Source: a virus | DNA: 35,049 bases | IMG/VR virus record: IMGVR_UViG_3300033153_001975 | Coordinates: 1-35,049 of that record | Reading direction: 5' to 3' (one strand) | In this document: piece by piece, positions 4,269-10,877 of the stretch | Layout: every line of letters begins with the position of its first letter | How positions within the stretch are numbered: position 1 is the stretch's first letter | Notes under the pieces: generated by a model | What the model was told of the DNA's origin: nothing | The model's input: only the letters and a program-made list of their open reading frames with translations | Database searches by the model: none | Program-made: the position numbers and the translations under genes

Positions 4269-4649
4269 TTATTTGTCCTCCGTGTGTATATTACCTATTA
4301 TTTCAGCTTCTAAACCAACAATATTTATTAAATTCGCGAAGTTATCTTCACCTACTTTTTCACAATCCCAACTAGCTATATCATCATGGAAAGCTACAAT
4401 CCATTCGTTACCGTTTTTATCTAACAATACATCATTATCATAAATCAATTTACCGTTCTTATCTTTAAGTCCTGTGCATTGTTCAATAATAAAATCATCT
4501 TGAGATATACCTTCTGTGTCGTATCCTTCGGTTCTATCTAAATTCCCATCATCATAAATCATATATTGTTCAACAAAACCGTCACTACCTATGGGCACAT
4601 TATAAGTTTTGTTTTTTATATCCCACACTCTAAATTTTAATCTACCCAT
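4269..4649 (-). CDS. YopX-like protein
   Basis: The sequence opens with MGRLKFRVWDIKNKTY, has an internal IEQCTGLKDKNGKLIYDNDVL, and then a small beta barrel ending in EIIGNIHTE. This is the layout of the YopX family, common in phages of many hosts and of unknown role. The ATG at 4649 follows the TAG of the upstream gene (TAGGATG) with GGGAG in front; an upstream ATG at 4667 is less likely because it lies inside that gene with a poorer ribosome site. Confidence 0.8.
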   Translation of the reverse strand: MGRLKFRVWDIKNKTYNVPIGSDGFVEQYMIYDDGNLDRTEGYDTEGISQDDFIIEQCTGLKDKNGKLIYDNDVLLDKNGNEWIVAFHDDIASWDCEKVGEDNFANLINIVGLEAEIIGNIHTEDK

Positions 4650-4650
4650 C

Positions 4651-4878
4651 CTATCTCTCCCTATCATTTATATCTGTTATTATACATTCATCCTTAAATA
4701 GTTTATCGATATTTTCTATATGAGTACCCATAGATTTTAATACCATTAAATCTTCGTGTATCCATTCTAATTTTTCAAGTATCTTAGCCTTCGCAGTTTC
4801 GTTTATATCTTTTGACAAGAAGTCTGCCTCAATAAACTTAAGAGCAATTCTTGCTAGTTCGAAATTATCTTTTATCAT
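4651..4878 (-). CDS. Hypothetical helical protein, 75 aa
   Basis: A helix-rich, acidic protein of unknown family. It overlaps the upstream gene by 14 nt and ends one base before the YopX-like start. Confidence 0.65.
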   Translation of the reverse strand: MIKDNFELARIALKFIEADFLSKDINETAKAKILEKLEWIHEDLMVLKSMGTHIENIDKLFKDECIITDINDRER

Positions 4879-5074
4879 TTTCTCTTCCTTTTATATCTGC
4901 CGTTATATTATGTACTATTTTTAATTCACCTTGTCGTTTCAAAGCTATTTGGTGAGCATTATATTTTCCTTTCTCAAAATCAGAGGTTGGTAATAAACTA
5001 TCTACCCATCCAGTATGATCCCAAATATAAAAACTATGCATACCATTCTTATTTTTATGTTCAATATTTATCAT
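4865..5074 (-). CDS. Hypothetical protein, 69 aa
   Basis: A small soluble protein with several Trp/Tyr/His residues (FYIWDHTGWVDSL). It starts at the stop of the upstream 106-aa gene; GGAGG lies just before the ATG. Function unknown. Confidence 0.65.
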   Translation of the reverse strand: MINIEHKNKNGMHSFYIWDHTGWVDSLLPTSDFEKGKYNAHQIALKRQGELKIVHNITADIKGRENDKR

Positions 5075-8610: not shown

Positions 8611-8736
8611 TTATCCTCCATTTAATTCATTATATCTATCGTACAATTCTTGTAAATATTCTGCAACATACCTATTCGTAACTCCATTTGATAAAGTATC
8701 ATCTATTTGTTTTTGTATCATTTTTAATTTAGTCAT
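8611..8736 (-). CDS. Small hypothetical protein, 41 aa
   Basis: The ATG at 8736 overlaps the helicase stop by 8 nt (ATGACTAA). The peptide (MTKLKMIQKQIDDTLSNGVT...) is helical and ends GG. Called because it fills the space between helicase and next gene with coupled junctions on both sides. Confidence 0.6.
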   Translation of the reverse strand: MTKLKMIQKQIDDTLSNGVTNRYVAEYLQELYDRYNELNGG

Positions 8737-9892
8737 CTTTCTTACCCCACTTATTTTCTTTTTTAGTTGTTTGTGTTATCTCTTCATACACCTCTTTGCA
8801 AGACGATGTATAACAACCACTCCTGTGTTGGTATTCAAAGAAGCATTGCCCAGTCTTACCACTTTCTTTATGTCTTACTTTTGAAACGATTACTCTACAA
8901 TAGTTTGTATATTCATAATCTTCATTTCTATCTCTATGAACAGTAATACCAATATCCGCTTTATTGTTCCAGTGTGCTCCACCAGATATATCATTCAACA
9001 AAGGAGGTCTTGTGTTTCTACCACTAGTTTCGTGCTTAGTAGGGTGAGCAACAAAAAACACATGTATATTAAATTGTTTCGCAAACCTTTGAACCTTAGT
9101 AATCATATTAGATATATAATCAGTTTCAGATATTCTTGTATTTCTTCCCTCAATCCAATTGTAAGGATCAATTACTATAGCATCTAAATTATATCTATGA
9201 ACAGCTTTACTTGATATATCAATAATATCATCGATAGTCAATCCAGCTTCTTCATTTTTAATAAACATAAAATGATCATTCAAAAAGCCTCTTACCTTTT
9301 GGTAGTCTTCTGTTGTTTTCATAATATCCTTAGCAGGTTTCTTAGCATGCTTTTGTAAGATATATTTCATATGCTCTTCTTTACCATTCTCAAAAGAACA
9401 TATCCCAAACTTCCAATCATGCATCTCTGCAAGGTTAACCATTATATTATCTAAGAATTGGGATTTACCACAATTGGGATAGCCAGTTAATATTGTTAGT
9501 TCTTTTTTTCTAACTCTAAATAATTTATCCATATCATCCCAACCAACAGTTAATCCCATTTTCGGTTCGTGTAAAACTTTTTCAATAAACCCCTCTTCAA
9601 AGTCTTTTAAAGTGAATAACCCTTTTATAGGAATAGGTTTACTACTATTGATAACATTCTCTACTTCTTCTAATTTCATATAAGAGTTTATAGAGGATTG
9701 AGGTTTAAAGCAATAATCTCCTCCCACATGATCAATAACTTCTTTTAAAACATTATCCCCTTTGATAAATAAAGTTGACTTACTGTTACGCTCTATCTTT
9801 TTTAGGTCTTGAGGACAGTTTATATAAATACTCTCTTTCCCTAAACAACTTAGATCATCGTGTATAGTTTTATCGTTTGTTATAATTTGCAT
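8729..9892 (-). CDS. Replicative DNA helicase, DnaB/Twinkle-like
   Basis: The 387-aa protein has a RecA-type helicase core: Walker A GYPNCGKS at 137-144, Walker B DAIVIDPYN at 237-245, and a sensing motif VAHPTK at 281-286. This is the arrangement of hexameric 5'-3' helicases such as DnaB, T7 gp4 and Twinkle. The first 100 residues lack a primase zinc domain and show only a weak trace of a TOPRIM-like end (LFIKGDNVLKEVIDHVGG), so priming is presumably by host primase. It overlaps the initiator gene by 23 nt and should be loaded by it at the origin. Confidence 0.85.
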   Translation of the reverse strand: MQIITNDKTIHDDLSCLGKESIYINCPQDLKKIERNSKSTLFIKGDNVLKEVIDHVGGDYCFKPQSSINSYMKLEEVENVINSSKPIPIKGLFTLKDFEEGFIEKVLHEPKMGLTVGWDDMDKLFRVRKKELTILTGYPNCGKSQFLDNIMVNLAEMHDWKFGICSFENGKEEHMKYILQKHAKKPAKDIMKTTEDYQKVRGFLNDHFMFIKNEEAGLTIDDIIDISSKAVHRYNLDAIVIDPYNWIEGRNTRISETDYISNMITKVQRFAKQFNIHVFFVAHPTKHETSGRNTRPPLLNDISGGAHWNNKADIGITVHRDRNEDYEYTNYCRVIVSKVRHKESGKTGQCFFEYQHRSGCYTSSCKEVYEEITQTTKKENKWGKKDD

Positions 9893-10556
9893 GGTACTCT
9901 CCTATTCTCTTTAGATCTTTGTTTATAAAGTTTTGTAAAGCAGACTTATAATCTTTATATGATTTATTCTTACTTTTGCAATACAGTATAACAGCTTCTT
10001 TTTGTTCTTCAATATAATCTCCATCAAATTTATTTTTTAAATAAGTTGATAGAGTACTGTTTTTTTTCTCCAACCATTCCATAAATATTTTATCATCCCT
10101 AAATTCCCAATCTCTAAACATTTCTAAAGTAGATATTTTTGGTATATTATTATCTTTATTATAGTTATTATCTTTATTAGTTGTTGTTAGTTGTTTGTTA
10201 GTTGTTTGTTGATTGTTTGTTAGTTGTTTGTTAGTTTGTGTGTTAGTACCTTGATACTTACTATAGTTAACTACTTGAATTAAGGTATTTTTATTAGTAG
10301 TTTTGATTGTTAGTTCGCCTGTTGATTTTAACTTATTTAAAGAGGTTCTTATGTTTTGTACTGATAAACTTAGTTCTTTAGCTAGGTTAGAATAAGATGT
10401 TATAAACTCACCTTGAGCTATGTCAAAACCTCTCCATTTTTTAGCTATGTAATTAGCTTTAAATAAACAGTGTATAAAAAGACTTTTAGTTTTATGGTCA
10501 TCATACCATTCCCATTCTAACATTTGTCTTTGTAATTGTATGAATCCATTATTCAT
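9870..10556 (-). CDS. Replication initiator / helicase loader, lambda O-DnaD-like
   Basis: The 228-aa protein has an N-terminal winged helix (about 10-95: FITSYSNLAKELSLSVQNIR, with wing TGELTIKTTNKN), a Thr/Asn/Gln-rich linker at 104-138 and a helical C-terminal domain (about 140-225) with the DnaD-like pattern EEQKEAVILYCKSKNKSYKDYKSALQNF. This is the domain order of phage replication proteins that bind the origin and hand over the helicase. The linker DNA consists of 11-bp repeats (10177-10246). ATG 10556 follows GGAGG and forms TAATG with the upstream stop. Confidence 0.75.
   Translation of the reverse strand: MNNGFIQLQRQMLEWEWYDDHKTKSLFIHCLFKANYIAKKWRGFDIAQGEFITSYSNLAKELSLSVQNIRTSLNKLKSTGELTIKTTNKNTLIQVVNYSKYQGTNTQTNKQLTNNQQTTNKQLTTTNKDNNYNKDNNIPKISTLEMFRDWEFRDDKIFMEWLEKKNSTLSTYLKNKFDGDYIEEQKEAVILYCKSKNKSYKDYKSALQNFINKDLKRIGEYHANYNKR
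10177..10246. repeat. 11-bp tandem iterons, candidate replication origin
   Basis: On the plus strand the unit TTAGTTGTTTG recurs at 10187, 10198 and 10220, with variants at 10177 (10 bp), 10209 (TTGATTGTTTG) and 10231, then a final TTAG at 10243. The period is 11 bp, near one helical turn and not a multiple of three. A strand bias (almost no C) is marked. Location inside an O-like initiator gene matches lambdoid origins. Confidence 0.6.
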
Positions 10557-10735
10557 TAGAACCTCCATTTGATTTTTCTTAATAAATTTTGAAGTTTACC
10601 TAGGTTTCTATCATTAATAATAATTATTGATTCTTTCCCAGTTAAATCTATTTGCTTAATACAAATATCTTTATTGTCATCTCGGTATACTTCAGTTTCT
10701 AATTGATGGTGTAGTTTTAATTTTGTGTTATTCAT
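10556..10735 (-). CDS. Small hypothetical protein ahead of the initiator, 59 aa
   Basis: ATG at 10735 with AAGGACAAGAGTA upstream; the stop overlaps the initiator start (TAATG), so the two are translationally coupled. The product is a mostly beta, basic protein (MNNTKLKLHHQLETEVYRDD..., tail LLRKIKWRF). Unknown family. Its ribosome site is part of a leader RNA that can switch pairing (10738-10842). Confidence 0.7.
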   Translation of the reverse strand: MNNTKLKLHHQLETEVYRDDNKDICIKQIDLTGKESIIIINDRNLGKLQNLLRKIKWRF

Positions 10736-10737
10736 TA

Positions 10738-10842
10738 CTCTTGTCCTTGTGTTTTGGTGGAGCCTATCCTTTGGACAAAAGATTTGAGAATTTTAATTCA
10801 AGGCTCCGTACTTAATTATATTTATGTATTTACCTTTTGTCC
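10738..10842 (-). promoter_or_regulatory. Leader RNA with mutually exclusive pairings (riboswitch-like)
   Basis: In the leftward transcript the order is S1 GGACAAAAGG (10842-10833), P GGAGCCU (10807-10801), S2 UCUUUUGUCC (10782-10773), P' AGGCUCC (10765-10759) and S3 GGACAAGAG (10746-10738), which contains the ribosome site of the 59-aa gene. S2 can pair with S1 (10 bp, one G-U) or with S3 (9 bp, one U-G), the latter hiding the ribosome site. P/P' (7 bp, perfect) interlocks with S1/S2 to give a pseudoknot. The gap holds no ORF. Confidence 0.6.
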
Positions 10843-10848
10843 GTATTT

Positions 10849-10877
10849 ATACTAACATTAGTTTAAAACTTATGCAA
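10849..10877 (-). promoter_or_regulatory. Leftward promoter of the replication genes
   Basis: Minus strand TTGCAT (10877-10872), 17-nt spacer, TAGTAT (10854-10849). The expected transcription start, about 10842, coincides with the 5' end of segment S1 of the leader RNA. Confidence 0.6.

Follow-up and report, generated by a model that had tools for sequence, protein, structure and literature searches.

On the minus strand of the phage record IMGVR_UViG_3300033153_001975, a stretch of 35,049 nucleotides (35 kb) that is called the window below, a leftward operon contains a single long gap. This gap of 146 nt (10881-10736) lies ahead of an ORF of 59 aa (10556-10735), the first one of the operon, which has a Shine-Dalgarno sequence and is without a family match. 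The stop codon of the 59-aa ORF overlaps (TAATG) the start of a gene encoding a DnaD-like helicase loader (9870-10556; phrog_2514, E 9e-26), which begins with the ATG at 10556, a second in-frame ATG being present at 10568. The loader gene in turn overlaps the gene of a DnaB-like replicative helicase (8729-9892; phrog_239, E 1.5e-54; Pfam DnaB_C, E 5e-22). Because of these two overlaps, translation is likely to be coupled from the 59-aa ORF to the loader and from the loader to the helicase. An earlier note on this DNA, made from its letters, had named the coupled genes as initiator and helicase; the helicase was rightly named, but the presumed initiator is the DnaD-like loader. Shine-Dalgarno sites are present at 43 of the 59 ORFs of the window, and therefore a helix formed over such a site should matter to the genes concerned.

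Interlocked and alternative helices in the leader

Within the long gap, the minus strand carries in 5' to 3' order four strands, A, B, A' and B', followed by the ribosome site of the 59-aa ORF, AAGGACAAGAG-UA-AUG. Strand A (GGACAAAAGGU, 10832-10842), the 5' strand or pre-emptor, pairs with the switching strand A' (AUCUUUUGUCC, 10773-10783) in a helix of 11 bp with one G.U (-13.1 kcal/mol). Strand B (GGAGCCU, 10801-10807) forms 7 Watson-Crick pairs with B' (AGGCUCC, 10759-10765; -12.0 kcal/mol), and in the order A-B-A'-B' both helices interlock as a pseudoknot. However, A' possesses a second possible partner, since a near copy of A is located at the ribosome site. In this alternative helix CUUUUGUCC (10781-10773) pairs with GGACAAGAG (10746-10738) over 9 bp with one G.U (-10.8 kcal/mol), covering part of the Shine-Dalgarno sequence AAGGA (10748-10744) and ending 2 nt 5' of the ATG at 10735. 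The copy differs from A by a single A-to-G change, which keeps the pairing with A' as G.U, and by nested folding the two states come out within about 1.4 kcal/mol of each other. The earlier note had described one strand pairing either with the 5' end of the transcript (10 bp) or with the ribosome site (9 bp), and a second, perfect 7-bp helix interlocking with the first; both pairings and the second helix were recovered as described, apart from the first helix, which has 11 bp. Scanning this region of the window for a terminator-like site revealed none, nor a T run after GGACAAGAG.

The pairings of the leader are not due to chance. When the 146-nt intergenic region was dinucleotide-shuffled 3000 times, no shuffle produced a pseudoknot of equal strength, and in the same scan over the whole minus strand the leader pseudoknot ranked first. 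Moreover, the triple of A, A' and ribosome-site copy occurred at only 1 of the 299 ATG starts tested in the window, the present one, and 10000 shuffled leaders yielded no triple of the window's strength (3 at a lenient cut). Plain nested folding is unremarkable (z -1.6), because the signal resides in the pseudoknot, which is invisible to standard folding. This modest z-score, together with the failure to find a homologue of the window's own leader (see below), is what could speak for pairings that arose by chance in AT-rich intergenic DNA. Such an explanation is nevertheless extremely improbable, given that the shuffle tests put it at about 1 in 10000 at the window's strength even before relatives are considered, and that the layout recurs in relatives.

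Two candidate promoters on the minus strand were considered, both of them from sequence only. The first, TTGCAT-17-TAGTAT (10849-10877), is weak and absent from the list of the consensus promoter scan, and its predicted start is at about 10842. The alternative, CGGACA-17-TATAAT (10815-10843), has 10 of 12 consensus matches and a predicted start at about 10808, while the count of sites of this grade in the region is near chance. It overlaps strand A, and its transcript would be without A and able to form only the helix over the ribosome site. The claim that transcription starts exactly at strand A thus fits the weak candidate and conflicts with the better-scoring one, and a start at 10842 is one of two options for the predicted transcript.

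Related layouts before the replication genes of other phages

Scanning the window against Rfam 15 gave nothing at gathering score and chance matches only at a relaxed threshold. Likewise, the type I elements described below belong to no Rfam 15 family, in agreement with the earlier statement that the leader matches no known class. A blastn search of the leader against phage records returned chance AT-rich matches only, and the exact A-B-A' pattern of the window is absent from IMG/VR. Neither searches by loader, helicase, terminase and small ORF in IMG/VR and annotated phages nor a window-first loader alignment revealed a close relative with a homologous leader. The only relative found through its terminase, L113 (IMGVR_UViG_3300033388_001210; 74% identity over the matched region), is a Shine-Dalgarno user; its contig, which extends for about 4 kb ahead of the terminase gene, yielded no loader. 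The Vibrio breoganii phages, which have the nearest annotated loaders, proved to be without the element, and three candidates from a pattern search of genome contigs (L194-L196) were discarded as chance matches without such a pseudoknot. A homology of the 59-aa ORF to small ORFs of relatives was also considered, but the identity of just 14-24% is too weak to claim it. In a loader tree, the window's loader is not nested among element-carrying phages, and the nearest loaders (L116-L118) are without the element. In one of these, L116, a hairpin of great length (1360-1501; stem CCTTTAATTTAGTTGCCCCC..., about -52 kcal/mol) stands before the loader gene and ends in T6 directly at the ATG, which by prediction makes it another kind of attenuator.

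Via distant loader relatives, an interlocked A-B-A'-B' element was found directly 5' of the loader operon in Bacteroidetes-like phages. One carrier, Cellulophaga phage phi18:3 (NC_021794), is cultured and is a Bacteroidetes phage by its recorded host; the other carriers are considered Bacteroidetes-like on account of their TAnnTTTG promoters and their lack of Shine-Dalgarno sites, which were found in 18 of the 541 ORFs of relatives. In 40 elements the TAnnTTTG promoter ends 3-13 nt 5' of A, usually 9-12 nt; a promoter within 40 nt was the selection criterion for these elements, the tight spacing was not. The common form, type I, has two further helices, D enclosing A and C enclosing A', and its B' leads into a T tract. 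Type I is, to judge by this layout, a pair of hairpins with kissing loops of which the second is a terminator.

Covariation was assessed in an alignment (A3) of 27 type I elements, in which 94.4% of the cells pair and 24 of 28 pairs have changes on both sides. The covariation score amounts to 0.776, compared to 0.240 for shuffled alignments and about 0.1 with the partners slid. G.U cells (59) are far more numerous than A.C cells (6), and therefore it is the sense RNA that is under selection. From IMG/VR, a search pattern for type I that ignores A and the pairing of C retrieved at least 120 stretches from Bacteroidetes-like phages, and among the 80 that were fetched (L197-L276) the pseudoknot is present in 78, the other two being cut by contig ends. 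Among 53 distinct type I elements, the A:A' pairing is complete (8/8) in 52 and the C pairing (4/4) in every one; with the A' of another element, 8/8 is reached in 1.6%. A DnaD-like loader is encoded at 24 of the 72 type I loci having enough downstream sequence, 68 fetched loci have one DnaB/RecA-like helicase cluster in common, and at many loci without DnaD the first protein encoded is a member of DUF6291, which has replication-initiation families among its relatives. At L007, two such elements stand in tandem (4614-4700 and 4916-5005), before a 60-aa ORF and before a DnaD-like loader. Searches of the literature, covering open-licence papers, returned no description of these leaders.

The leader of the window resembles type I in its A-B-A'-B' interlock, in its size of about 85 nt and in its position 5' of loader and helicase genes. 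In addition, TGAA follows B and GGAT precedes B' in both, with no further letters in common, and the short GGAU match may be due to chance. In contrast to the window, type I elements have TAnnTTTG promoters, helices C and D and a T-run terminator, and at the start codon they carry no second A (0 to -4 kcal/mol); the window has ACCAAAACAC after B' and TTAGTATAAATAC before A, instead of the T run and TAnnTTTG promoter of type I. R1, a covariance model of type I, failed to match the window's leader even with filters switched off and hits accepted up to E 10, while it recognised held-out type I members such as Cellulophaga phage phi18:3 (E 3e-7).

The unpaired letters that are conserved in type I (ACA..ATA, AAGGNATTATT, TGAA and GGAT) surround freely covarying helices, as would be expected for a bound pocket. 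Hence the leader might instead bind a ligand or a protein, the pseudoknot being the aptamer or operator and the pairing of A' with the ribosome site the expression platform, for example in autoregulation by the loader or the 59-aa protein. The TGAA and GGAT of the window fit this explanation too, but these are the only two short motifs in common and possibly arose by chance. Moreover, the switching letters vary between phages, so that they could not serve for sequence-specific recognition by a regulator, and no ligand or protein is known. Altogether we regard a leader of this kind as unlikely.

In a second form, type II, A is repeated beside the start codon of the loader gene, and A' is able to pair with either copy. 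Eight independent sequence families of this form were found, with as A strands CCCACCAAGA (L136), ATACGCAACCA (L089), ATACGACCGA (L100), GGGCAG (L109), ACAACCA (L098), AGGCAGT (L178), GTGCAG (L042) and GTTGCAG (L038). Their copies end within 6 nt of the loader start codon or overlap it, a layout found in 2 of 1570 shuffled upstream regions. These eight families may have more than one origin. Scored in the same way, the window resembles type II in layout, its A' pairing with the upstream strand at -10.7 kcal/mol and with the start-codon copy at -10.8 kcal/mol, and the three elements A, A' and A copy are arranged alike. Unlike in the window, the genes of type II phages are without Shine-Dalgarno sites, the promoters are mostly TAnnTTTG and the copy stands at the loader gene itself; the window comes from a Shine-Dalgarno-using phage and has it at a small ORF whose translation is likely coupled to that of the loader. 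A permuted variant was seen at L114 (1390-1501), where GTGTTGT can pair with either of two ACAACAC copies, the second of which overlaps the loader's start codon, and where a terminator-like helix adjoins.

The copy differs from A by A to G in the window and in L136 and by T to C in L100, and none of these differences breaks the pairing with A'. Such a pattern suggests that RNA pairing, rather than a DNA site, is under selection. This bears on the possibility that the repeats are a DNA-level feature, in which the GGACAAAAG words (+,-,+) would be origin sites bound by a replication protein. A 9-bp word that recurs in three near copies over 105 bp, adjoining a loader gene, could be read in that way. 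However, the word changes across phages with its pairing kept, where a DNA site would be conserved, and the copies differ by changes that preserve pairing. Type I furthermore tolerates G.U and not A.C, the promoter 5' of the relatives' elements is on one strand only, and the window has no other cluster of the word. A DNA-level feature is for these reasons very improbable.

The earlier note saw in the leader the logic of a translational riboswitch or regulator-binding leader, an interpretation that finds support in part. Its two-state logic, with A' bound to the 5' strand or to the ribosome site, recurs with other letters in eight families before related loaders. Beyond this pairing logic, type II families have no sequence similarity with the window, and the window's loader is not nested among theirs. 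The comparative support for a two-state logic in the window's leader is strong as far as predicted pairing goes and does not extend to its common descent with these families. Since R1 scores nothing, the loader is not nested, L116-L118 are without the element and the use of Shine-Dalgarno sites differs, the comparison suggests that the leader originated by convergence or was acquired by recombination.

A proposed switch and its counterparts

We propose that the leader at 10842-10738 is a bistable RNA switch of the pre-emptor type that sets the translation of the loader-helicase operon, a reading to which we assign a probability of about 0.6. Strand A would be transcribed first and capture A' once A' exits the polymerase, B:B' would lock A:A' as a pseudoknot, and the ribosome site would be left free (ON). 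With A missing, cut off or masked, A' would pair with the ribosome-site copy of A (OFF). The OFF helix would then block initiation at the 59-aa ORF and, via the overlapping stop and start codons, expression of loader and helicase. From the arrangement of the sequence we infer a transcript start at A, the translation block by the OFF helix, the coupling and some trigger that chooses the state, which could be a protein, another RNA, processing of the 5' end or use of the inner promoter. The latter is an attractive possibility, as transcripts from the inner TATAAT promoter would be without A and therefore OFF. Counted against the switch were the better-scoring promoter, which would exclude A, and the fact that the window is without a terminator after B' and without the flanking helix D of type I. 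The lack of an R1 match and the place of the loader, whose nearest relatives are without the element, were also counted against it. Nonetheless, comparison with relatives gives the switch reading good support, and it is highly likely that the leader is a genuine, hitherto undescribed RNA switch, because its layout recurs with other letters before the replication genes of many distantly related phages.

On a wider scale, the leaders might form a widespread, undescribed class of phage cis-RNA switches, with a fast-changing 5' kissing pair A:A' that is read out in type I through a terminator and in type II through a start-codon copy of A; we give this an even chance. If true, the window extends the type II logic to a phage with Shine-Dalgarno-using genes. 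To our knowledge, little is known beyond a few models about the timing and dosing of helicase loader and helicase in lytic phages. A conserved switch that is missing from Rfam and occurs in at least 120 stretches from uncultured phages and in one cultured phage makes the question of operon timing directly testable. Moreover, the letters of the kissing pair turn over fast and the remainder is retained, a pattern shared with plasmid copy-control RNAs, and it is a testable idea that these letters set specificity between co-infecting phages.

Among known systems, repC of plasmid pT181 (Novick 1989, as presented in PMC5703833) has a pre-emptor that pairs with the 5' arm of the ribosome-site hairpin. 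As far as that account goes, pT181 and the window are alike in their mutually exclusive pairings and in the involvement of the ribosome site of a replication gene, a likeness that for the window is one of complementarity and energies. By the same account, repC is controlled chiefly through termination of transcription, with a counter-transcribed RNA as the driver, whereas the window has no terminator at the site, no sign of an antisense RNA, an interlocked pseudoknot as its predicted ON state and a presumed translational readout. An attenuator exactly like that of pT181, in which a counter-transcript on A would free A', is suggested by the three-strand logic and by the replication-protein target that both share. 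Yet opposite-strand promoters are not enriched around the elements of the relatives, promoter-like sites on the plus strand of the window are in no excess over chance, and copy control would serve no obvious need in a lytic phage, which renders antisense control distinctly improbable. A second counterpart is the translational pseudoknot switch of repZ in the IncI-alpha plasmid ColIb-P9 (Asano and Mizobuchi 1998, cited in PMC10724649). There, a leader pseudoknot is reported to decide the translation of a replication protein; it reportedly lies at the ribosome site itself, and a leader peptide and an antisense RNA are linked to it. The pseudoknot of the window, in contrast, lies upstream and would compete with a ribosome-site hairpin, so that the likeness is one in outline. 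Taken together, while the phage leader family around it appears to be undescribed, the leader of the window appears to be akin to known leader attenuators.
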